Virus record (IMG/VR): IMGVR_UViG_3300009553_000387
Coordinates: 1-24,494 of that record
DNA length: 24,494 bases
Reading direction: 5' to 3' (one strand)
DNA from: a virus
The notes under the pieces were generated by a model. The model made no database searches. It was not told the DNA's origin and worked only from the letters and a program-made list of their open reading frames with translations. Every line of letters begins with the position of its first letter. Positions within the stretch are counted from its first letter, which is position 1. The position numbers and the translations under genes were made by a program. Of the stretch, positions 4,731-23,998 are shown one piece after another.

Positions 4731-5090
4731 CTAGACCTCATGGATCGGTGTAAGATGTGTATCGGATGGGTTGTGCGTTAATCCGATGCTTATCAACGTG
4801 ATCCGATGATAAACACGCACCCCGTTTTCTTCTGTGCAGTCGTTTGGATCAAAGGCGATCTTAGGCACCGCGTAAATCCCGTAAGGAATCATGCCGCCGG
4901 TTTCGGCCTCGATTGACACCGCTCCGCCGTCGTGCGCCGCCTTCTGGACGCTTCCGATCTTCAGTCGTGCGAAATTCCAGCTAATTGGTGTCGTAGCAGC
5001 CTGCGCCGCAATCTGTACTAATGCTGCGTCGCTGAACTGTTCGCCATCTTGATCGACCTGATTGGTCGCAATCGTTGCTACCCATCTCAT
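4731..5090 (-). CDS. Phage protein, possibly XkdF-like fold, unknown function
   Basis: A 119-residue protein. The opening (VATIATNQVDQDGEQFSDAALVQIA) and the end (RVYHRITLISIGLTHNPSD) have the pattern of small protease-like phage proteins of the XkdF/S78 type: a beta strand, a 'D..GE..s..al' stretch, and a closing strand with 'igLt..P.d'. No convincing His/Ser pair is visible, so it may be a non-catalytic relative. The ATG overlaps the upstream stop as ATGA, and a 49-residue gene follows after 3 bases. The resemblance is weak; it is best treated as a conserved-looking head operon protein. Confidence 0.6.
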   Translation of the reverse strand: MRWVATIATNQVDQDGEQFSDAALVQIAAQAATTPISWNFARLKIGSVQKAAHDGGAVSIEAETGGMIPYGIYAVPKIAFDPNDCTEENGVRVYHRITLISIGLTHNPSDTHLTPIHEV

Positions 5091-5443
5091 CTAGCAATCC
5101 TCAGTGTGGCGCGGCTGTTCGCGGCATCACTCACGAAGCGCACGCGCCGGCTCACGTTGATGTCCTCTCGGTGCCCACGCACGGCCTGCCGCATCGCCTG
5201 CGCGAGCCAGCTACTGCTAGACGCCCAATCGGGCCGCATCGCCAGCAGCAGGAGCTGGAACAGCGTGGCGTTGCGCTCGGTCAGGTCAGGCCGGTCGGAT
5301 GGAAACAGCGCGGCGGCTTCGACCCGATCCGGCCAGATGTCCAGCACAAAGCCCTCGCTACTCCCCATCGTGCGGCTGCCGTCCTCGCTCGTCGACCAGA
5401 CGAACGACGCCGGCGGCTTGCTGAATAGCTCAACGAGATCCAA
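5087..5443 (-). CDS. Head operon protein of unknown function
   Basis: A 118-residue protein without a recognised domain. It begins MDLVELFSKPPASFVW and has a central helix-rich segment (ATLFQLLLLAMRPDWASSSSWL), ending in a basic tail (RVRFVSDAANSRATLRIAR). The start overlaps the upstream membrane-protein gene by 14 bases and the stop overlaps the next start as ATGA, so it is firmly embedded in the operon. Size and position between a gp10-like gene and the scaffold gene would fit a head-tail connector or tail-completion protein, but this is guesswork from synteny. Confidence 0.6.
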   Translation of the reverse strand: MDLVELFSKPPASFVWSTSEDGSRTMGSSEGFVLDIWPDRVEAAALFPSDRPDLTERNATLFQLLLLAMRPDWASSSSWLAQAMRQAVRGHREDINVSRRVRFVSDAANSRATLRIAR

Positions 5444-5681
5444 CGATGTCCTCCCAGGCGTCGCGCAGCGTCTCGGGTGCGTGGCGCGGGTGAGATGGCG
5501 CAGGATAGGCCGGCGGCGGGTAGGCGCTCTCTGGCGCGCGCGTCGGTAGCGGCGTGACAGACACCAGCGGCGTCAGGGTCGCACGCAGCGGCGTGACAGC
5601 GGCCATCTGCGCCGTGTCCGCCTGCCACAGCAGCGCCAGCACGATCAGCCACGCGAGGATGATCAGGATGAAACGTCGCAT
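5430..5681 (-). CDS. Small membrane-anchored Pro-rich protein
   Basis: An 83-residue protein with an N-terminal hydrophobic helix (residues 3-19, after MRR) followed by a Thr/Pro-rich linker (TPLVSVTPLPTRAPE, then PPPAYPAPSHP). This is either a signal anchor or an uncleaved signal peptide; there is no lipobox Cys. The predicted topology is a short cytoplasmic end with an extracytoplasmic Pro-rich tail. The ATG overlaps the upstream stop as TAATG. The shape recalls inner-membrane spanin-like or other small phage membrane proteins, yet it sits among head genes, not in the lysis block. Function unknown. Confidence 0.6.
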   Translation of the reverse strand: MRRFILIILAWLIVLALLWQADTAQMAAVTPLRATLTPLVSVTPLPTRAPESAYPPPAYPAPSHPRHAPETLRDAWEDIVGSR

Positions 5682-6157
5682 TAGGAGGCCTCGCTATCAA
5701 TGGCCCGCTGAAAGAGCGCGCCGACTTGCCGCTGCCACTTCTCGGCAATCACCTGGTCGAACTGGCGCGGCGCGGTGCCGGGATGGTGAATCGGCTTGCG
5801 GGTGAACACCTGATTGCCGCCTTTGCTGCCCGGCCCGCTCGCGATCTGGCGCGGCAGCGTCTTCGACCGAAACGGCGTGCGAAACACCAGCGTGCCGCCC
5901 GGCCGGGGCGCGATGATGTGCGGCCGTGTGCCCACGCTCAGCCGCGTGTAGTTCTCGTCATCCGTCCCAATCGCGCGGGTGTAGACGGTCGGCGACTCAA
6001 TCGTGAACGTCGGCGCATCGTCGAATGTCTGCGCAGTGACCGCAAAGTCGGCCTTGATCGCCAGCGCGGTGCTGTTCAGGGTGTTGGTGATGGCGCGGGC
6101 CATCGCCTTTGGATCGACGCTTAGCTTACGCGGCACTATAACCTTGCTTTTGCCCAT
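5681..6157 (-). CDS. HK97 gp10-like head-tail joining (minor tail) protein
   Basis: A 158-residue protein read from the ATG at 6157, which has a GAGGGA Shine-Dalgarno; an in-frame ATG 48 bases upstream lacks one. The C-terminal half contains the sequence HPGTAPRQFDQVIAEKWQR, and the middle has a beta-rich stretch (RPHIIAPRPGGTLVFRTPF). The 'H-P-G-T-x-x-x-x-F' signature and the order of elements match gp10-type tail-completion or minor capsid proteins. These bind the end of the tail or the connector in tailed phages. In HK97 this gene follows the capsid gene, whereas here it precedes it. Confidence in the family is moderate. Confidence 0.6.
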   Translation of the reverse strand: MGKSKVIVPRKLSVDPKAMARAITNTLNSTALAIKADFAVTAQTFDDAPTFTIESPTVYTRAIGTDDENYTRLSVGTRPHIIAPRPGGTLVFRTPFRSKTLPRQIASGPGSKGGNQVFTRKPIHHPGTAPRQFDQVIAEKWQRQVGALFQRAIDSEAS

Positions 6158-6348
6158 GGCTTCCCTCGGTGCGCGTGGATACTGATTCGGCGCGGCTTGG
6201 CGCAATTGTTTGTGTCAATCATCTGCACCGGCGTCTCGCCCCAATACGGAACGACCAGGGTTGTGGTGCCGCGCGAGCGCGCATCCTCCCACGCCTGCAT
6301 GATTTGCTGTACTTGCCTGTCGGGAAACGCCCCAAAGATCAGCTTCAT
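6136..6348 (-). CDS. 70-residue phage protein of unknown function
   Basis: The start at 6348 forms an ATGA overlap with the MuF-like gene, giving a 70-residue protein beginning MKLIFGAFPDRQVQQIMQAW. It has an alpha/beta look with a central TTLVVPYWGETPVQMID stretch. The 3' end overlaps the gp10-like start by 22 bases. An in-frame extension to 6447 is possible but would run deep inside the MuF-like gene. Such tiny genes between MuF-like and connector genes are common in phages. No domain recognised. Confidence 0.55.
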   Translation of the reverse strand: MKLIFGAFPDRQVQQIMQAWEDARSRGTTTLVVPYWGETPVQMIDTNNCAKPRRISIHAHRGKPWAKARL

Positions 6349-6908
6349 ACCTGTACCACCCCATCCCTCACTCTGAGTGGCGCCCAATCCAGCGCCCGCT
6401 GCTTGCACACCTGGCAGTCCTCCGCTGCGCTCAGCAGCCAGGTACAATCATAGTTGCCGTCGCCCTCCAGCTCATTCACGTCCCACGCACACCGGCAGCG
6501 CGTCAGGCAGGTTGACGTGCCGTCGCCCGGCATCGCCGGGAGAGAAAGCATCTTCACGGCCCCGCGCCAGTAGGGCGCTTTAATCGACTCGGCGTACATC
6601 TGCGCCCGCGCGTTCCACCCCGCCTGCCACTGATCGCCGCCCTGCACTTCAATCGCGAATTTGCCGAGAAAGCGCAGCTGCGTGGCCAGGTCGGTCGTGA
6701 CCGCCGTGGTCATCGCCGGCGTCAAGGTCTCCACGCCCGCCCCGGCCAGCATCGCCGCCGCGTGGTAGCGCGCCAGTTGCCGACTGACCTCCTGCTGCCA
6801 GGCCGCAACGCCCGCCGGGTAGTCGGCTTCGAGTGCGCCGGTCGCAGTGACCACCAGGCGCGAGAGGCGACTGAGCAACCAGGTGAGCGGAGAAGGCGGA
6901 TTAGGCAC
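6345..6908 (-). CDS. MuF/SPP1 gp7-like head morphogenesis protein
   Basis: The protein (187 residues from the GTG at 6908) ends with a Cys-rich segment, CLTRCRCAWDVNEL, then CTWLLSAAEDCQVCKQRALDW. This pattern of W...C..C and clustered Cys is typical of the C-terminal domain of MuF-like minor capsid proteins encoded next to the portal. These proteins are packaged in the head and are thought to help DNA entry or capsid assembly. The upstream part is helical. The GTG overlaps the TAA of the preceding 44-residue gene (GTGCCTAA); a TTG start further upstream at 6965 is possible. It lies two genes downstream of the portal gene, as expected. The assignment rests on the Cys pattern and synteny. Confidence 0.65.
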   Translation of the reverse strand: MPNPPSPLTWLLSRLSRLVVTATGALEADYPAGVAAWQQEVSRQLARYHAAAMLAGAGVETLTPAMTTAVTTDLATQLRFLGKFAIEVQGGDQWQAGWNARAQMYAESIKAPYWRGAVKMLSLPAMPGDGTSTCLTRCRCAWDVNELEGDGNYDCTWLLSAAEDCQVCKQRALDWAPLRVRDGVVQV

Positions 6909-7035
6909 GTCGGAGCATCCGCCGAATCTTGCGCCGCATGATGTGCCGATCAAGCGACCGATCAATCACAATGTCATAGCGCGCTGGTTCACCTTTCGGC
7001 CATGACGCGATAGGGAGCGTCGATTGCTTACCCAT
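6901..7035 (-). CDS. 44-residue basic protein
   Basis: A very short gene starting MGKQSTLPIASWPKGEP and ending in a strongly basic helix (RHIMRRKIRRMLRRA). It fills the gap between portal and MuF-like genes and overlaps both (8 bases with each). Leaving it out would create an unusually large gap in an otherwise overlapping operon. The basic tail could bind DNA or RNA. Coding status is inferred from packing alone. Confidence 0.45.
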   Translation of the reverse strand: MGKQSTLPIASWPKGEPARYDIVIDRSLDRHIMRRKIRRMLRRA

Positions 7036-8650
7036 GCTTCCGTGCCTCCCTGCCTAGCCGCTTAGCCCATCCTAGCTCAGCTTCCAGCAGTGCTCGCGCC
7101 TCGTCATCCGCCGCGTCTTTCATCGCCACGCCGGGATTGATCCAGGGGTCGAGCCCTTCATACGCCACCCATCCTGACTCGTCTTTCGTCGCCAGCCCCG
7201 GCGGGCCTTGCGCCGGCGCGGCGGTCGGTGCGCCCTGGATGAGCGCCAGTGCCGCTGGGCTGAGCGATGCGCGCTCGGGCGCTTGCTTCTCGTCGTCACT
7301 CAGCTGCCCCGCGCCGGTCGCATCATCCGCCACCATCTCCTGGGGCAAGTCCTCGCTATCGACCGCCAGCTGGCGGGCCATCGGCGGGCTGATCTCGCCT
7401 GACTGAATCTGCACCGCGCGGGTGTCGGCGCGCAGCTTCTGCACCTTGGCTCTAGCCTCCTGATCGCGCATGTCGTTTTCGTCAGTGAACTGCACCTCGG
7501 TTGTGGCGGGCAGCACGCGGTCGCTGACCGTCTGCTCCCACCACTTGATAAACGCCGGCATCGCGCCCTGGCCTTTGGCCGCGTCCTCCAGCACTAAGGT
7601 TTGTGTGCCCGTGCCCAGTCCCTGCCCAGAGAGCGGCTGAATCGACTGGACGGGGACGCCGATATTATTGGCGTAGATCAGGTAGCCGTTATCCCGTTCG
7701 TCCTTTGGCACGAAGCTACTGAGCAGCTCTTTCAGCTTGACCTCGACCATGCTGATCGGCGTGTCACTGGGGATGGCCCCCAGGATCGTGCCGAGGTAGT
7801 AGACCAGCCCGCGCGCCTGAGCGTCGGCCTCGCCGCTCTTCAGAATCGCCTGGAGTGTCGGATCATTAATGCCCTGCAGAAACACCAGTTTATTCGCGCC
7901 GCCGCCGGTCAAATTCTCATACACCAGTTGTTCCATCGCGCTCAGCTTGGATATCGTCTTGTAGGCCCGGCTGGCCGCGCACTCGCCGACGCCGAACAGC
8001 TCCGCGCGGGGGCTGACCTGATCGGCGTAGATCAACACCTGATCCCACCTAAATATCTGCTGCACGCCGTTGATCGGCATGTAGCGCACCGGGTACACTA
8101 AGTTGCCGGTGCGGATCATGCGCAGGCTGTCGAGATGATACAGTCCCGTGATTTTCGCGCCGGGCCTGGAGACTGTCACCGCTGCCTCAGCAAAGCCGCC
8201 GGTTTCGGCACCCTGGACGGTCTCCTTCACGCGAATCTTGACCGTCTCATCGCCTTCGTGCCGCAGACGAATCCCGATCCCATTGTCGCACAGCAGCAGA
8301 TCGCGCATCACCTTGATCGCGAAGGGCACCCAGCCCTCGCCGCCGTTCGCGCGCTTCATGAGCTGCTGACTAGCTGAGACCTTGCGTCCGCTGTCGCCGC
8401 TGTCTTTGATGGTGTAGCCGTGCGCCGCAAAGCGCGTGGCCGCAATCGCCACCGCCGCCGCCCACATGTCCTCTTTCTTGGTGGTATTCGATAATACCCA
8501 ATCGCGAGTGGGACTCCAGTAGGGCGGCAGATCGGTGTAGGTCGGCTGGCTCATCATCCACGGGAATGCCAGGCCGAACACCGCCGGCGCGCTGCTGGCG
8601 TACTCTAAGGTGTTGCCCTGGATGGCGCTGGGGGCTTGCAGGTCGGTCAT
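7028..8650 (-). CDS. Portal protein
   Basis: A 540-residue protein with the sequence style of phage portal proteins: an N-terminal region with PYWSPTRDWVLSNTTKKEDMW, a central RWDQVLIYADQVSPRAELFGVGECAASRAYKTISKL segment typical of the wing-to-stem part (position about 215-250), and later IPVQSIQPLSGQGLGTG-like residues. Twelve copies would form the ring at the capsid vertex through which DNA passes. It follows the large terminase and one small gene, the standard order. The ATG at 8650 overlaps the upstream stop as ATGA and is preferred over an in-frame start 15 bases upstream. The C-terminal 120 residues are Pro/Ala-rich and acidic, a common variable tail. Confidence 0.85.
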   Translation of the reverse strand: MTDLQAPSAIQGNTLEYASSAPAVFGLAFPWMMSQPTYTDLPPYWSPTRDWVLSNTTKKEDMWAAAVAIAATRFAAHGYTIKDSGDSGRKVSASQQLMKRANGGEGWVPFAIKVMRDLLLCDNGIGIRLRHEGDETVKIRVKETVQGAETGGFAEAAVTVSRPGAKITGLYHLDSLRMIRTGNLVYPVRYMPINGVQQIFRWDQVLIYADQVSPRAELFGVGECAASRAYKTISKLSAMEQLVYENLTGGGANKLVFLQGINDPTLQAILKSGEADAQARGLVYYLGTILGAIPSDTPISMVEVKLKELLSSFVPKDERDNGYLIYANNIGVPVQSIQPLSGQGLGTGTQTLVLEDAAKGQGAMPAFIKWWEQTVSDRVLPATTEVQFTDENDMRDQEARAKVQKLRADTRAVQIQSGEISPPMARQLAVDSEDLPQEMVADDATGAGQLSDDEKQAPERASLSPAALALIQGAPTAAPAQGPPGLATKDESGWVAYEGLDPWINPGVAMKDAADDEARALLEAELGWAKRLGREARKHG

Positions 8651-8886: not shown

Positions 8887-10196
8887 TGCTCAAACCTCTG
8901 TGACCACACGCCGTAGCGCAGCGCGTCGATTGAGTGATCAAACGCCTTGATAATCTTGCCGTTCGCGTCTTTGCGGTAGCTGACCATCTCAGCACGGAGA
9001 TTCGCGCAGCGTGGATGCGCTTTGACCCGCCGCCGATTGTTCGTGTCGAGTGCTAAGCCACGCCGCAGTTCCTTGATACTTTCCTCGACATCCGACGGGC
9101 TGTTGCGCGTATAGACTCCCGCCGCGTGGAGTCGGCCCTTGAGCTCGGCCGCCGACTTGTCGACGACGGCGTAATCAGGATGCGGATACGGCAGCGCCAA
9201 GACATCGGCGACGTGGACATCACTCAGCACGCCGCAGCGGTCATCTTCATAGAACACATTGATTGTACCATCACGGCGCAACTGGCAGAGCAGAAACACG
9301 CGCGGATGACTGTCGGCTGTCCAGTGGCCGGTCTGTGCGTCGCGCGTGCCGACATAGCCATCGTCGATAAACCAGAGCACCGATCCTGCGCCCGGCTCGT
9401 AGTCGGCCATGCTGGTCACGTTGCCGTCGCTCGGCCCGTCACTCCAGACGCCAAAGATCACGCCGGTCGCCTGCACCCACAGCCCCAGCCCCAGCCGCTG
9501 CCATTCGGTGCCGACGCGCTCACCACTCGCCGTGTCAATGTGCCCCAGCCGCTCCAGCTTCTCACGATAGGCGCGGCCCTCAGCTGTCCAGTGCCCATTG
9601 CGGTAGAGGCGCGGGTTGTCTTCGTGACGACTGTGCAGCATGGTCGTCGTGCCAGCTTGTGAGCGCAGCCACAGCCAATGCGTCGGCGCGTCGGGGTTGC
9701 AGTCGGCGATCAGCTGCTGGTACGGCATGACGCCGTTGCGCAGCCGGGTCGTCAGCGCCAGCCATGAGGTCAGATCCAGCTCGGTCGCCTCCTGCACATA
9801 GATCATGTCGTATTCGGTACTCATGATCTTGGCCGGCTTGTCGAGACCGCCGACGACAAGCTCGCTGCCGTTCGGATAGTGGTAGGCCTGCCTGAAGTTG
9901 CGGCGCGGGCCGTCTTTGACCCCATCGTGCGCTGGCAGCACCTTGTCTTCAAACGTGACCAGCGCCGCTTCGGATAGGCTTTCCCTGGTCTTGCGCACAA
10001 TCAGGCCGCGCATGCCAGCGTACTTGAGCGCGCAGAAGTGTAGCTTCTCCAGACACGCGCGCGACTTGCCGGTGCCGGCTGGGCCGCTGACGACAATCTC
10101 GGTCTGTTTGCTCCGCCACAGATCGACCGCCGCGCCGTAGGCGCTGTAGCCGCGTGGGCGGGGTGCTGGATTAGGCGTCGTCGGGGTCGAAAGCAT
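8883..10196 (-). CDS. Terminase large subunit
   Basis: A 437-residue protein from the ATG at 10196. Residues 38-45 are the Walker A box GPAGTGKS. MIYVQEATELD matches the Walker B with catalytic Glu. IADCNPDAP is the downstream motif usual in these ATPases. The C-terminal nuclease has candidate acidic residues in FIDDGYVGTRDAQ, VVDKSAAELK and AFDHSIDALRYG. It powers DNA packaging and cuts the concatemer. A longer in-frame reading to 10346 overlaps the small terminase and reads as low-complexity Ser/Arg, so it was rejected. The chosen start leaves a 26-base overlap with the small subunit gene. Confidence 0.93.
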   Translation of the reverse strand: MLSTPTTPNPAPRPRGYSAYGAAVDLWRSKQTEIVVSGPAGTGKSRACLEKLHFCALKYAGMRGLIVRKTRESLSEAALVTFEDKVLPAHDGVKDGPRRNFRQAYHYPNGSELVVGGLDKPAKIMSTEYDMIYVQEATELDLTSWLALTTRLRNGVMPYQQLIADCNPDAPTHWLWLRSQAGTTTMLHSRHEDNPRLYRNGHWTAEGRAYREKLERLGHIDTASGERVGTEWQRLGLGLWVQATGVIFGVWSDGPSDGNVTSMADYEPGAGSVLWFIDDGYVGTRDAQTGHWTADSHPRVFLLCQLRRDGTINVFYEDDRCGVLSDVHVADVLALPYPHPDYAVVDKSAAELKGRLHAAGVYTRNSPSDVEESIKELRRGLALDTNNRRRVKAHPRCANLRAEMVSYRKDANGKIIKAFDHSIDALRYGVWSQRFEQ

Positions 10197-10689
10197 CGGT
10201 TTTCTCGTAGACCTTGAAGAGTGGCTGGCCGTCTTTGCCGGTGTGCTCAACCTTATCCGTGAACAGCTTGTGATGCTTGCCGAGTAACGTGAGCGCGCCC
10301 TGCACGGGGTGCAGCTCCAGTGCCACCTTTTCCTCGGTTTCATCATCCTTCAACCGGCGTGTGGTGATACTGATCTTTTGGAGCAAATGCAGCGGCTGCT
10401 CGTCGCTCAGATCGAAGCCGCGGAGATCGCCGTCAGGCGTGCGCCGCAGAAACGGCGCAAGGCTCCCGCGCGCGTGGTCAGTCAGCCGCACCAACACCTC
10501 GTCGGCGCTCATCTTCAGCTCAGCCAGCCGCGCCTGAATCGCAGCCTGGACGTTAACATTTGTTAACAATCGTGATGCTTGTTCGCGTGCGGTATGCTCC
10601 GAATAGCCCGCCAGCCGCGCCGCTTCCGCGCCATTCCATGTAGTCAGGTAGGCTTCAACGAATGCGAGTTGTTTAGGTGACAGTGCCAT
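10171..10689 (-). CDS. Terminase small subunit
   Basis: A 172-residue protein with the Terminase_2-type N-terminal helix-turn-helix: LSPKQLAFVEAYLTTWNGAEAARLAGYSEHTAREQASRLL. The gene order, immediately before the large subunit, confirms the role: it binds the packaging site and hands DNA to the large subunit. The C-terminal half (about residues 70-150) is a mixed region with EEKVALELHPVQGALTLLGKHHKLF, as in this family. The start overlaps the upstream fusion gene by 17 bases. The neighbour upstream has the same HTH fold fused to another domain, making two small-terminase-like proteins in tandem. Confidence 0.88.
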   Translation of the reverse strand: MALSPKQLAFVEAYLTTWNGAEAARLAGYSEHTAREQASRLLTNVNVQAAIQARLAELKMSADEVLVRLTDHARGSLAPFLRRTPDGDLRGFDLSDEQPLHLLQKISITTRRLKDDETEEKVALELHPVQGALTLLGKHHKLFTDKVEHTGKDGQPLFKVYEKTDAFDPDDA

Positions 10690-11206
10690 AGTCTAGTCTT
10701 AGCTGCTCAATGTCATCATCGCAGAGCCTGAACCACTCACCACGAATACGTTTGCTGGCAAACCTAGAATGAAGTAGCTGCTCCAGGCTGATGCAATTGT
10801 CGCAGTCGATAAGCAATACTACCTCTAGACTATACGGCATAAGTGTGTTGAGCGTTGCCAAGCGCCGACGAAAATCAATCGTAATGCCAATCTTCACGAG
10901 TGCATTATCGGCCCGCAAGAGATAAACAATGCCCCTTTTTCGCTCGATCCGCTTACTTGGATTGACCTGTTCGGCAAACCGCTGAAGCATTTCCCGCGTG
11001 CCAGCTCCTGCGACATCGGATAAGAGCGCGATTCGTGCTTCGATTGCGCGCCGGATATCGGGCTTTCGTAGGTTCTCGAATCCCATCTGCCGCGCAGTTC
11101 GCGCAGAGTACCCCGCGCGTATCACTGCTTGTGTTGCGTTAAAGTCAACGAGGTACTCTTCAATAAAGCGTTGCTGCTTATGGGAAAGGCTGTTTAGTTT
11201 TGGCAT
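10673..11206 (-). CDS. Small-terminase HTH fused to GIY-YIG-like (MUG113/T5orf172) domain
   Basis: A 177-residue protein. Residues 7-60 copy the Terminase_2 helix-turn-helix (SHKQQRFIEEYLVDFNATQAVIRAGYSARTARQMG). Residues 90-170 match the GIY-YIG-like MUG113/T5orf172 type: GIVYLL at 92-97, KIGITIDFRRR at 105-115, Glu142, His146 and GEWF at 156-159. The first domain normally recognises packaging DNA; the second belongs to a nuclease superfamily. The fusion suggests a DNA-binding nuclease, perhaps a homing-type or packaging-site nicking enzyme, but no activity is shown. The ATG at 11206 has a GGAG Shine-Dalgarno 7 bases upstream and is the first gene after a consensus promoter, so this protein heads the late operon. 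Confidence 0.82.
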   Translation of the reverse strand: MPKLNSLSHKQQRFIEEYLVDFNATQAVIRAGYSARTARQMGFENLRKPDIRRAIEARIALLSDVAGAGTREMLQRFAEQVNPSKRIERKRGIVYLLRADNALVKIGITIDFRRRLATLNTLMPYSLEVVLLIDCDNCISLEQLLHSRFASKRIRGEWFRLCDDDIEQLRLDYGTVT

Positions 11207-11240
11207 GGTAGGCTCCAAAGCGAACATTTGCCCTACCTAT

Positions 11241-19337: not shown

Positions 19338-20048
19338 ATGCGCCTGATCTTCTGCCTGGGCGGCAATCGCGCCTATATGGCGACGGCGCGCCAAGCGGGC
19401 TGGTGGCCAGGCGCGCGCCTCCCATCCGCGCTGTATCCTGATCACTACCCGCTCGCCTTTGCCGATCAGGACTGGCGCAAGTTTGACGGCCTTGCCCCAG
19501 ACGACCCCGCCTACCAAACGGCGTACCAGCGCTATCTTGCAGCCGTCGCAGCGGCAGCGCCGACAATGGCCAGCGTGATCGACTGGGAGGAACAGCGCCC
19601 ATTATCTGAAGTCCTGACATGGGCGCTGGCAATCAGCACCCATGTCGAGACCGTGATGATCATTCCCAAGGTGCCGGGCGCTACCCGCCAGATCCCTGAG
19701 CGGATCAACGGCGTGCCGATCACGCTCGGTTTCTCGGTGCCGACGCCGCACGGCGCGACATCCTGCCTGCCCGATGAGTTTAGCGGGCGGCGCGTGCATT
19801 TACTGGGCGGCTCCGTCCTCGATCAGCTCAAATGGGCACCCGTGCTGCTGGCGGCTGGCGCAGATGTCCGAAGCGCCGACGGCAATTCGTTTCACTATGC
19901 CGCTGGCCGTGGCACTTATTTCGACGGCCGGCGCTTCGTCAATCACGGGCCGCGCACGACAACGACCATCGAAGCCATGCGTCTGTCACTTTGCAATATC
20001 CCCCGCGCATGGCGCGCCGCCGGATGGACACTCTCGGCAAGCCCCTAA
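19338..20048 (+). CDS. TGT/DpdA-like phage enzyme, copy A
   Basis: A 236-residue protein that, in my reading, matches a phage family (possibly DUF6610) related to tRNA-guanine transglycosylases. It opens with FCLGGNRAYM, then has TLGFSVPTPHGATSCLP and VHLLGG at 153-158, with SADGNS at 179-184. The 'HLLGG...ADGNS' pair resembles the barrel end of TGT/DpdA enzymes, where an Asp attacks the base; Asp181 is the candidate. TGTs swap guanine for a deazaguanine; phage members can act on DNA. The ATG at 19338 has AAAGGA 7 bases upstream. It is very close to copy B at 20731 in sequence. Family by memory, catalytic role inferred. Confidence 0.6.
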   Translation: MRLIFCLGGNRAYMATARQAGWWPGARLPSALYPDHYPLAFADQDWRKFDGLAPDDPAYQTAYQRYLAAVAAAAPTMASVIDWEEQRPLSEVLTWALAISTHVETVMIIPKVPGATRQIPERINGVPITLGFSVPTPHGATSCLPDEFSGRRVHLLGGSVLDQLKWAPVLLAAGADVRSADGNSFHYAAGRGTYFDGRRFVNHGPRTTTTIEAMRLSLCNIPRAWRAAGWTLSASP

Positions 20049-20227
20049 AATCATCGGCGCTAGGGCACTCGCCCGCCTACGCCAGCCACGCGAGACACCC
20101 CGCGAGGGTAAGGACACCACTCTGGTGTTTCGCAGATCGGCGGTTTTTCGCGGCACAGCGCGGCATGCCGGGCCTTTTGGCGCGAATGCCGCGACTCCGC
20201 AAAACGGCGCACATTTTTCACAAAGTC

Positions 20228-20304
20228 TGGTGGGCGGTACGGGACTCGAACCTGTGACCTCATCGGTGTGAACGATGCGCTCTGGCCAGCTGAGCTAACC
20301 GCCC
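20228..20304 (-). tRNA. tRNA-Val (CAC)
   Basis: A full cloverleaf is seen on the minus strand: 7-bp acceptor GGGCGGT/ACCGCCC, D arm GCTC/GAGC, anticodon stem CATCG/CGATG with loop TTCACAC (anticodon CAC), and a T arm with TTCGAGT loop (one A-C mismatch). The 3' CCA is encoded at 20228-20230. It lies on the opposite strand between the two TGT-like genes. Confidence 0.93.
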
Positions 20305-20364
20305 GAACGGGCGTGCGAGGCTCACCGGAATTAACCAACTGATTTTTAGAAGGAGCCGGGTGCG

Positions 20365-20399
20365 CGACGCGCAATAAATGTAATAGTTAATGCGCGTCG
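20365..20399 (+). repeat. GC-arm inverted repeat with AT-rich centre
   Basis: CGACGCGCA and TGCGCGTCG enclose a 17-base AT-rich loop, about 30 bases before the GNAT-like gene start. It could be an operator or a recombinase site; the AT core contrasts with the GC-rich surroundings. Confidence 0.4.
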
Positions 20400-20428
20400 T
20401 ACTGCTACGTGTGTTAGGAGGGGATGCC

Positions 20429-20734
20429 GTGATCTTCGAGAGCCTATACGGCAGCGCACAAGCGGGCGAATTGCTGCTGATCGAGGGCGGCTACTGCCGC
20501 TGGCATGCCCGGCGCGACGGCACGATCACGATCTACGAGATCATCAGCACGCGACCTGGCGCGGGGTGGGATATGCTATCGGCGCTGATCGACTACGGCA
20601 AGCCGATCACGGCGCGCTGTCCGATCAGGATGACGCACGCCAACGCCTGGTGGCGGCGGCGCGGGTTCCGCCTCATCGCTACCGAAACAACGCAGCAGGG
20701 CACTGCACTCAATGTCTGGAGGTTCGATCCGTGA
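20429..20734 (+). CDS. GNAT-fold acyltransferase-like protein
   Basis: A 101-residue protein. Its sequence has the order of a small GNAT fold: a strand with LLLIEGGYCRWHARRDG, a strand-helix TITIYEIISTRPGAGWDMLSALI where the pyrophosphate loop should lie, and a closing ANAWWRRRGFRLIATETTQQG, equal to the 'N..Y.k.GF' motif. Short GNAT proteins in phages include the DNA-modifying Mom family. A GTG at 20429 has an AGGAGGGG Shine-Dalgarno 7 bases upstream, better than the ATG at 20390. The TGA overlaps the next start as GTGA, so it is translated together with TGT copy B. Substrate unknown. Confidence 0.65.
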   Translation: MIFESLYGSAQAGELLLIEGGYCRWHARRDGTITIYEIISTRPGAGWDMLSALIDYGKPITARCPIRMTHANAWWRRRGFRLIATETTQQGTALNVWRFDP

Positions 20735-21432
20735 AACTTATTTTCTGCCTGGGTGGGAACCGCAGCTATATGGCAATGGCGCGCGCCTCCGGCTGGTGGC
20801 CAGGCGCACGCTTGCCGGCCGCGCTGTATCCTGATCACTATCCGCTCGCCTTTGCCGATCAGGACTGGCGCAAGTTTGACGGCTTATCGCCGCCTGATGC
20901 TGCGTACCAAACGGCGTACCAGCGCTATCTCGCGGCCGTCGCGGCGGCAGTGCCGACGATGGCCAGCGTGATCGACTGGGAAGAACAGCGCCCACTTTCC
21001 GAAGTCCTGACATGGGCGCTGGCGATCAGCCGATATGTCGAGACGGTCATGATCATTCCCAAGGTGCCGGGCGCGGTCGACCAGATCCCTGATCGGATCG
21101 GCGGCGTGCCGATCACGCTTGGCTTTTCGGTGCCGACGCCGCACGGCGCGACATCCTGTCTGCCCGATGAGTTTAGCGGGCGGCGCGTGCATTTACTAGG
21201 CGGGTCGGTACTCGATCAGCTCAAATGGGCACCCGTGCTGCTGGCGGCCGGCGCGGATGTCCGAAGCGCCGACGGTAATTCGTTTCACCATGCCGCCGGC
21301 CACGGAACCTACTTTGACGGCCAGCGGTTTGTTAATCACGGCCCGCGCACGACAACGACCATCGAAGCCATGCGCCTGTCGCTTTGCAACATCCCCCGCG
21401 CATGGCGGGCCGCCGGGTGGACGCTCAGCTAA
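20731..21432 (+). CDS. TGT/DpdA-like phage enzyme, copy B
   Basis: A 233-residue copy of the protein at 19338, with most residues identical and with the same VHLLGG and SADGNS motifs. Several stretches of DNA are identical over 30 or more bases, so the pair arose by duplication or is kept alike by gene conversion. It starts with GTG in a GTGA overlap with the GNAT-like gene, with TGGAGG 9 bases upstream. The stop overlaps the integrase stop end-to-end (21429-21432). Sequence outside the genes is not repeated. If the fold is right, it would exchange a base in tRNA or DNA; this is not shown. Confidence 0.6.
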   Translation: MKLIFCLGGNRSYMAMARASGWWPGARLPAALYPDHYPLAFADQDWRKFDGLSPPDAAYQTAYQRYLAAVAAAVPTMASVIDWEEQRPLSEVLTWALAISRYVETVMIIPKVPGAVDQIPDRIGGVPITLGFSVPTPHGATSCLPDEFSGRRVHLLGGSVLDQLKWAPVLLAAGADVRSADGNSFHHAAGHGTYFDGQRFVNHGPRTTTTIEAMRLSLCNIPRAWRAAGWTLS

Positions 21433-22397
21433 TCGTCGTTCTCCTGCGACCGTGCCACCAGCCGCGCGATCTGACTGGCCTTGCCGTGGATCGCCGCCAG
21501 CTCCGCAGGGTCGAGCTGGGTGTAGATCCGCGTCGTGTTCAGTGACGAGTGCCGCATGAGTTGCTGAATCGTCAGATCGCCTAGGCCTTCTTTCAACCAG
21601 TTGCGGGCGCAGAGGTGCCGGAACGCATGCAGCGGCCGGGGCACTAAGGGCACATCGGCCCGTTTCGCGAGGTGCGCTAGGCACTTGCGCAGCGCGCGGG
21701 TCGAGGCGCGCTTGAGGAACTTATCGCGAAACAGCGGATCGGCATCGGGTCGATCCCCCGCCAGGCTCAGCAGCGCTTGCCGCGTGATCGGACTGATGAA
21801 CGCGCTGTCCTCATGCCCGCCCTTGCTCAGCACGATCATCTCATCGGCGCGGATCTGTCCACAGCTGAGCGCGCAGACCTCTGCCGCGCGTAGCGCGCTG
21901 TCGCACAGCAGCAAGATTAGCGCGTAGGACTGCTGGGCGTCGCGGAGCGCGTAGGGATTACTACTCGGCCACCATTTGTTGACCTCGACTCGCTCATCGA
22001 TCCACTCACGCGCGGTGGTCAGCAGCTTGACCACCTGTTCCTCGGAGTAAATCCGCCGCCGCTTGCGCTTCTGTGCAATCGGGCGCACGCGGCCGGCCCC
22101 GACGAACGGATCGCGCTCCAGTACGTCCTGCTCGGTCAACCAGCGACAGAGCGTTTTGATCATCCGGTACGACCCGCCGATGGTGGCAGGGGCGAGCTTG
22201 CGGCTGCGCTGCTCAGCCAGGTACGCGCTGATGGTGAGCGCGCTGATCGGGCGGTCTTTTAGGTAGTCCCTGAACGGGCGCAGGAAGGCACGATAGGTCG
22301 CGATCGAGGCGGGGTTGCAGGTCTCGGATCGGGAATCGAGGAATGCCGCAATCAGGGCGGCGGGCGAACGGGACGCAGGGTTCGCTATTGGCAGCAC
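21429..22397 (-). CDS. int: Tyrosine recombinase (phage integrase)
   Basis: A 322-residue enzyme with a complete tyrosine-recombinase catalytic set: Arg170 (DSALRAAEV), Lys192 (LSKGGHEDS), His257 and Arg260 (HAFRH), His283 (MRHSS) and Tyr292 (RIYTQ). Residues 10-90 are the SAM-like core-binding domain. The start is a GTG with AGGAGG 5 bases upstream. It performs site-specific integration or excision. The strand is opposite to the upstream TGT-like gene and the stops overlap. Its 5' side carries repeats and a hairpin (22441-22587). A partner excisionase could be the HTH protein at 18134. Which attachment site it uses is not visible. Confidence 0.95.
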   Translation of the reverse strand: MLPIANPASRSPAALIAAFLDSRSETCNPASIATYRAFLRPFRDYLKDRPISALTISAYLAEQRSRKLAPATIGGSYRMIKTLCRWLTEQDVLERDPFVGAGRVRPIAQKRKRRRIYSEEQVVKLLTTAREWIDERVEVNKWWPSSNPYALRDAQQSYALILLLCDSALRAAEVCALSCGQIRADEMIVLSKGGHEDSAFISPITRQALLSLAGDRPDADPLFRDKFLKRASTRALRKCLAHLAKRADVPLVPRPLHAFRHLCARNWLKEGLGDLTIQQLMRHSSLNTTRIYTQLDPAELAAIHGKASQIARLVARSQENDD

Positions 22398-23347: not shown

Positions 23348-23998
23348 ATGGCTGTTACGCGTCGAATCACAACCCGCGATGGGAAAACATGGTATGTCGG
23401 TGATCATATCGAGTGGGACGATGCAACTGACCCTGCGTGTGTCATTATCCCGGCAAACCAGATCGAAGGACTGAGTGATCGCGCAATTGGACGTGCGGTA
23501 CGCGAAAGCATGAAAGAAGCGCGCTTTTGTGCCGCAGAATACGCCGCTGAGCACATGATCAGCAATGTGGGAACAAGTCAACATCCAAACCTGCCACCGT
23601 TCGTCCTTGACAAAAAGTCACTACTCGTAGAGTTTGCAGGGCGAACACCAGTGATTGATCGTGCGTTGGCGATCATCGCCGACTACGAAGCGCGGCTGGC
23701 GCGACGAACACCGAAGCACCCCCCGCGTGATCGTTCTGGGTACATCTATCTGGTTGAAGGCCAGAACTGCTACAAGATCGGCAAGTCGATTGATGTGCCC
23801 ACACGCACCCGATCATTCGGGCTACAGCTCCCTTTCCCGACGAAGCTTATCCATTCGATGCCAACCGATGACATGGTGTGGGCAGAAGCCTACATGCACC
23901 GGACTTTCGCGCACTGCCGAATGAATGGCGAGTGGTTTGATTTATCACCTGATGAAGTGGCGTGGATATGCGATATTGAATCGCTTAATCCTGGCTAA
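23348..23998 (+). CDS. MUG113/T5orf172 (GIY-YIG-like) protein
   Basis: A 216-residue protein. The N-terminal 120 residues have no recognised domain but start as a strand-rich MAVTRRITTRDGKTWYVGD. The C-terminal third is a MUG113/T5orf172 domain: GYIYLV at 131-136, KIGKSIDVPTRTR at 143-155, Glu180, His184 and GEWF at 194-197. This superfamily includes GIY-YIG nucleases, and the Arg and Glu are the expected active-site residues. The AAAAGGGG Shine-Dalgarno is 7 bases upstream. It resembles the C-terminal domain of the terminase fusion at 10673-11206. Likely acts on DNA, substrate unknown. Confidence 0.82.
   Translation: MAVTRRITTRDGKTWYVGDHIEWDDATDPACVIIPANQIEGLSDRAIGRAVRESMKEARFCAAEYAAEHMISNVGTSQHPNLPPFVLDKKSLLVEFAGRTPVIDRALAIIADYEARLARRTPKHPPRDRSGYIYLVEGQNCYKIGKSIDVPTRTRSFGLQLPFPTKLIHSMPTDDMVWAEAYMHRTFAHCRMNGEWFDLSPDEVAWICDIESLNPG

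Follow-up and report, generated by a model that had tools for sequence, protein, structure and literature searches.

A DUF6610 and GNAT gene pair in a tailed phage as a candidate module for 7-deazaguanine modification of DNA

What might an integrase-carrying virus do with two closely similar DUF6610 genes, a small GNAT-fold protein and a tRNA-Val gene, all set beside its integrase? We addressed this question for a virus record of IMG/VR with a GC content of 62%, which was analysed over its full length of 24,494 bases (hereafter the window). The window encodes terminase subunits and an endolysin, and the record is on this account assigned to a tailed phage. The features of the locus are the following.

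19338..20048, plus strand: DUF6610 copy A, ATG start, 236 aa (Pfam PF20314 at 3.8e-33; AlphaFold2 pLDDT 93.3; Foldseek; conservation)
20228..20304, minus strand: tRNA-Val, anticodon CAC (ARAGORN; Rfam RF00005, 62.7 bits)
20429..20734, plus strand: small GNAT-fold protein, 101 aa (AlphaFold2 pLDDT 92.3; PDB GNAT matches, E 1.7e-5; Pfam GNAT matches in relatives; linkage)
20731..21432, plus strand: DUF6610 copy B, GTG start, 233 aa (Pfam PF20314 at 2.3e-34; 91% identical to copy A)
21429-22397, minus strand: tyrosine integrase, convergent, meeting the 3' end of copy B

The locus and its two DUF6610 genes

The first-pass annotation of this DNA had pointed to two long proteins with a VHLLGG motif followed by SADGNS. 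Both motifs are indeed present in both copies, and both proteins belong to PF20314 (DUF6610), with bit scores of 115.2 and 119.2 against a curated cut-off of 27 bits. The amino-acid identity of 91% leaves 20 aligned residues different between the copies, and the nucleotide identity is 87%. The substitution rates (dN 0.069, dS 0.435) give a dN/dS of 0.16, from which we conclude that both are real, selected genes and not chance open reading frames or an assembly artefact. The copies are sisters in the family tree (support 100/99), which is poorly resolved overall and is relied upon for this pairing only. On the strength of the pairing, copies A and B appear to have arisen by a recent duplication.

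The GNAT gene accompanies copy B only, the DNA upstream of copy A being unrelated to it. Its stop codon overlaps the start codon of copy B by 4 nt (GTGA), in agreement with the earlier statement that the two are translated together, and its own start is most likely the GTG at 20429, with AGGAGG a few bases upstream and an equivalent start residue in relatives. The integrase was likewise correctly placed next to the module, at the 3' end of copy B. Elsewhere in the window, a terminase small subunit (PF03592) is fused with a MUG113/T5orf172 (GIY-YIG-like) domain (10673-11224, minus strand); a second terminase small subunit gene (10171-10689) adjoins this fusion gene, and a further T5orf172 gene lies at 23348-23998.

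The single tRNA gene at the locus, tRNA-Val, is found between copy A and the GNAT gene on the opposite strand, and a role for it in the module had been suggested. This role was rejected. The anticodon CAC has no G34, hence this tRNA-Val is not a queuosine substrate, and none of the other DUF6610 loci carries a tRNA-Val. A tRNA of any kind occurs in only 4 of the 28 other loci, with the anticodons TCT, TGT, CCA and TTC. With no G34 and no tRNA-Val at the other DUF6610 loci, the gene is probably incidental. An exact-match search with the tRNA-Val, as a pointer to the host, found no host.

Predicted fold and conserved residues of DUF6610

Copy A was modeled by AlphaFold2 with a 29-sequence alignment, and the model is an eight-stranded barrel (pLDDT 93.3, pTM 0.90). 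In the Foldseek comparison with the PDB, TGTs took ranks 1, 3, 5, 7, 8 and 10 (E 4e-4 to 6e-3; TMq 0.55-0.61), the top TGT structures being 4gg9, 4hvx, 6h62, 1p0e and 2pwu; class II aldolases ranked close behind. The library of viral models (BFVD) separates TGT-type proteins from other barrels better than does the PDB. The first two matches in this library were DUF6610 proteins, the best match beyond the family was the queuine tRNA-ribosyltransferase of Arthrobacter phage Mufasa8 (E 7.6e-6), and several TGT-type proteins stood lower. Phage nt-1 R9TGF0, which we assume may be a DpdA2, was a weak fold match (E 0.036). The resemblance to TGT/DpdA enzymes proposed from the sequence is thereby upheld, by the barrel model, by best PDB matches that are mainly TGTs and by the best viral match outside DUF6610; a structure search, the check that had been suggested, returned a TIM-barrel/TGT match.

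Conservation throughout the family is complete or almost complete at D43 in strand 3, at D82 following strand 4, at H154-G157-G158 in strand 7 and at D181 in strand 8, which is where the active site of a barrel would be expected. D43, D82 and D181 are invariant aspartates at strand ends, D181 lying on the last strand of the predicted barrel, and all three are kept in HVTV-1 gp69, HCTV-1 gp64 and Rinkes gp1. The motif series of DpdA (DSGAFS, SVLDxIGD, VHGFGLTS, SVDSS) resembles that of DUF6610 (FADQxW, ATVLDWE, VHLLGGSP, SxDGN); the pairing of the motifs is our reading of the two alignments, which have the order VHxxG then SxD in common.

Profile-profile comparisons (hhalign) of DUF6610 with DpdA and with TGT fell below significance, as did the DpdA-TGT control, itself of few sequences. 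The TGT profile (PF01702) had no match in the window or its relatives at E 0.01. The same model also misses the annotated dpdA of phage Rinkes and so is blind to the edge of the superfamily. The C-terminal zinc site of TGTs (CxCxxC...H) is absent from the 236-residue sequence and from the family alignment, the 236-residue protein has no evident tRNA-binding extension, and a PDB sequence search with DUF6610 gave chance matches only. The structural case for a TGT-like DUF6610 therefore stands on the predicted fold, not on sequence statistics. We consider it probable, jointly with the full explanation given below, that DUF6610 belongs to the TGT/DpdA superfamily as one of its small members, and a TGT-type base exchange with a 7-deazaguanine is very likely its reaction.

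The GNAT partner and 7-deazaguanine genes in relatives

The model of the 101-residue protein has a GNAT fold (AlphaFold2 pLDDT 92.3), the listed PDB matches are all GNATs (E 1.7e-5), and its relatives match Pfam GNAT models down to 4.4e-10. The acyl-CoA motif of the GNAT superfamily is R/QxxGxG/A. In the window protein and in most of the DUF6610-linked members, the corresponding loop is shortened to RPGAG, while a few keep a full RxxGIG; because of this shortening, cofactor binding by the window GNAT is uncertain. A Mom-like identity for this protein, which had earlier been likened to Mom in size and position, gained no support, as no Mom family match was found in Pfam, PHROGs or NCBIfam, and the best structural matches, Naa50 and RimI among them, are GNATs of the ordinary kind.

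A single-sequence search with DUF6610 found no relatives in viral contigs; it was the GNAT query that opened the family. The DUF6610 alignment had no relative among the genome contigs at the patterns used. Linkage in IMG/VR was counted by hand, with identical contigs collapsed. Of the 27 testable distinct contigs from the unbiased DUF6610 search, 19 had the GNAT either next to DUF6610 or in fusion with it (the other 8 loci had no GNAT), and in the reverse search DUF6610 adjoined the GNAT in 21 of 26 contigs, the remaining five GNAT loci having no DUF6610 nearby. Two fusions were found whose domains are arranged in opposite orders, one being GNAT-DUF6610 (relative L025) and the other DUF6610-GNAT (relatives L092/L093). 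The GNAT is a conserved, sometimes fused, and real partner of DUF6610. The sole relative of the window GNAT among annotated phages is that of Dinoroseobacter phage R5C (40% identity), where DpdA precedes it by two genes, within a queD-queC-folE-queF-dpdA operon. The same GNAT type is thus found with two different transglycosylases, DpdA in R5C and the predicted one, DUF6610, in the window. In a separate observation, an RRXRR and HNH protein (IscB-like; L003 2631-3917) lies just upstream of one GNAT-DUF6610 pair.

Genes for the import of queuosine precursors recur next to DUF6610. A QPTR/Vut_1 or QueT gene directly adjoins DUF6610 in five related phages. In L026, a QPTR/YhhQ-type gene lies between the GNAT and DUF6610 (Vut_1 1.5e-36, TIGR00697 2.5e-24), and in L024 this position is held by QueT (3.3e-26). 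In L014, the QPTR gene is flanked by QueF (3e-30) on one side and a second DUF6610 on the other, and in L078 and L019 it is downstream, the copy in L019 being apparently truncated. In the halovirus HCTV-1, a Vut_1 gene is found two genes away from DUF6610. QPTR and QueT/QrtT were, before a 2024 study, the two transporter families with a characterised role in queuosine-precursor salvage, and such salvage normally serves tRNA (PMC11130926). Among phage records these importers seem infrequent: a tblastn search of limited sensitivity gave QueT-like matches in 16 of 50,697 records, Streptococcus phage Dp-1 among them, and one match for the QPTR query from L026. HCTV-1 was missed by this search, and the figures are a rough guide to rarity. 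Some neighboring genes are recorded here on their own account. The slot of the importer in L026 and L024 is filled in L007 (1417-1653) by a 78-aa membrane protein of unassigned family. The second DUF6610 of L014 (11403-12668) continues, with the reading frame kept, into a stretch that resembles a DNA methylase (SPPF motif; PF01555 E 0.03, under the cut-off), and L024 encodes a large protein (4856-7123), probably a terminase by sequence, that is interrupted by an intein (PF14890 1.2e-13).

Synthesis genes accompany the family in HVTV-1 and in phage Rinkes. HVTV-1 gp69 is a DUF6610 protein (E 2.7e-56), whose gene adjoins folE, with queD, queC and queF near and in the same operon. The DNA of HVTV-1 contains dPreQ1; its authors did not find a viral DpdA and left an undetected transferase possible (PMC6884629). 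In Mycobacterium phage Rinkes, DUF6610 is gene 1; after it come a gene of the QueF family, which carries the annotation GTP cyclohydrolase and has a PF14489 match at its position, and then dpdA, queC, queD, queE and folE. Rinkes gp1 (L005 1-1299) is annotated as a ParB-like nuclease domain protein, in which DUF6610 spans residues 199-384; a similar ParB/Sulfiredoxin entry was the top match in the viral fold library. DUF6610 genes are also annotated in L069, L070 and other haloarchaeal plasmids, one of them next to a weak PCNA-like match, and Microbacterium phage Megan (L063 670-2543), another phage with paired transglycosylases, has a tandem pair of genes annotated as queuine tRNA-ribosyltransferases. 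In the 24.5-kb window itself we found no QueC, QueD, QueF, QueT or YhhQ gene, most IMG/VR relatives had no 7-deazaguanine gene, and the 13 loci searched for a preQ1 riboswitch or other regulatory RNA had none beyond tRNA. The suggestion of a base-modification module is nevertheless well supported by context, in that relatives adjoin genes for 7-deazaguanine synthesis or import.

Proposed mechanism, alternatives and known systems

We propose that in phage DNA DUF6610 would replace guanine with a 7-deazaguanine, either preQ0 or preQ1. The part of nucleophile would fall to Asp181, with Asp43 and Asp82 as candidate general acid/base and base-recognition residues. That DNA is the substrate is likely in our judgment, a degree less so than the exchange itself. 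In the window phage the base would be supplied by the host, since there are no synthesis genes within the 24.5 kb of a record that is perhaps incomplete; Salmonella phage 7-11, with DpdA alone, sets a precedent in its use of host preQ0 (PMC8651126). Relatives would be further equipped for precursor import, by QPTR or QueT, and one of them for making preQ1, by QueF. The co-translated GNAT would act in the same pathway, in the simplest version through N-acylation of preQ1 at its primary amine, whether the base is still free or already inserted. PreQ1 bears a primary amine, a natural target of a GNAT, and QueF is present, where tested, in R5C, L014, HVTV-1 and Rinkes; for these two reasons N-acylation of preQ1 is the preferred version. 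Action of the GNAT on the base itself is given slightly less than an even chance. The modified DNA may resist host restriction or another DNA-targeting defense. Taken as a whole, base exchange in DNA by DUF6610, a GNAT within the pathway and protection of the DNA make up a probable explanation. A narrower form of it is tentative: an undescribed hypermodification, in which a minimal DUF6610 would insert preQ1, the GNAT would N-acylate its aminomethyl group and the precursor would be salvaged from the host or the environment.

The GNAT might instead work outside of base chemistry, acetylating a host protein in counter-defense, as does the small GNAT AcrVA5, and being merely co-expressed with DUF6610. 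Its best fold matches are protein N-terminal acetyltransferases, five GNAT loci are without DUF6610, and there is a very weak profile match (E 0.7) to 6iuf, which we take to be AcrVA5. Yet adjacency in 21 of 26 contigs, fusions in both orders and recurrence by DpdA in R5C argue for a shared pathway, and we hold the host-protein role to be unlikely. A Mom-type module, in which the GNAT would modify DNA adenine as Mu Mom does, with DUF6610 as a helper, would account for a small phage GNAT adjoining a putative DNA-modifying enzyme, but the missing Mom match and the 7-deazaguanine pathways among the partners make it exceedingly improbable.

The remaining alternatives concern DUF6610. The TGT fold, the tRNA gene between the copies and the normal service of precursor salvage to tRNA (PMC11130926) would suit guanine exchange in a host or phage tRNA, with the GNAT modifying the tRNA base. 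Against this stand the tRNA-Val without G34, the scarcity and mixed anticodons of tRNA genes at the other loci, the lack of an evident tRNA-binding extension or TGT zinc motif in a protein of 236 aa, and the presence of the base in the DNA of HVTV-1, a relative with a preQ0 operon (PMC6884629); we regard the tRNA reading as quite improbable. That DUF6610 is another TIM-barrel enzyme (an aldolase, sugar isomerase or nucleotide-processing enzyme) with no base exchange is very unlikely: class II fructose-bisphosphate aldolases do score near TGT in Foldseek, and the profile link to TGT/DpdA is below significance, but TGT-like proteins dominate the viral fold search, and the linkage is with queuosine-precursor transporters, QueF and preQ0 operons.

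Base exchange in DNA by DUF6610, if borne out, would offer a function for a family without an assigned role and an answer to the puzzle, dating from 2019, of dPreQ1 in HVTV-1 DNA with no recognised DpdA. Two predictions follow: the 7-deazaguanines with which some phages disguise their DNA would be salvaged and not made by these phages, and the GNAT would attach a further group. Each can be tested directly, in one case with the cultured phage R5C. The literature searched does not mention DUF6610, and we did not find described in it the GNAT partnership, the GNAT-DUF6610 fusions or salvage-type modules in bacterial phages. The archaeal-virus DUF6610 proteins (HVTV-1 gp69 and HCTV-1 gp64) are probably the group that Cui et al. 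2023 call DpdA4, a word absent from the papers of the full-text search.

These archaeal-virus proteins share with the window PF20314, the conserved aspartates, the VH-LLGG motif and an origin in tailed dsDNA viruses. They differ in their archaeal setting, their own preQ0 operon, an N-terminal extension and the lack of a GNAT in the stretch examined; the form in the window is short, makes up a protein by itself, and has a GNAT but no synthesis genes with it. DpdA1 and DpdA2 (phages 9g, CAjan and nt-1) have in common with DUF6610 the predicted fold class, the order D...D...VHxxG...SxD and a presumed base exchange, but show no significant sequence or profile similarity to it, and DpdA1 is larger (about 290-430 aa among those compared). 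Bacterial TGT (PF01702) provides the best PDB fold matches (TMq 0.55-0.61), yet has 375 aa as opposed to 236, and DUF6610 has no PF01702 match or zinc motif and no indication of tRNA specificity. Streptococcus phage Dp-1, whose DNA contains dPreQ1 (PMC6884629), resembles the relative L024 in its phage-borne QueT and differs from the window in having no DUF6610 match. Mu Mom is, like the window GNAT, a small phage protein of GNAT fold, but there is no family match between them, and the partners of the window GNAT point to guanine, not adenine, chemistry. The R5C operon carries the same GNAT type as the window, at 40% identity, and sets it beside a DpdA1-type transglycosylase in place of DUF6610 and a full set of preQ1 synthesis genes.
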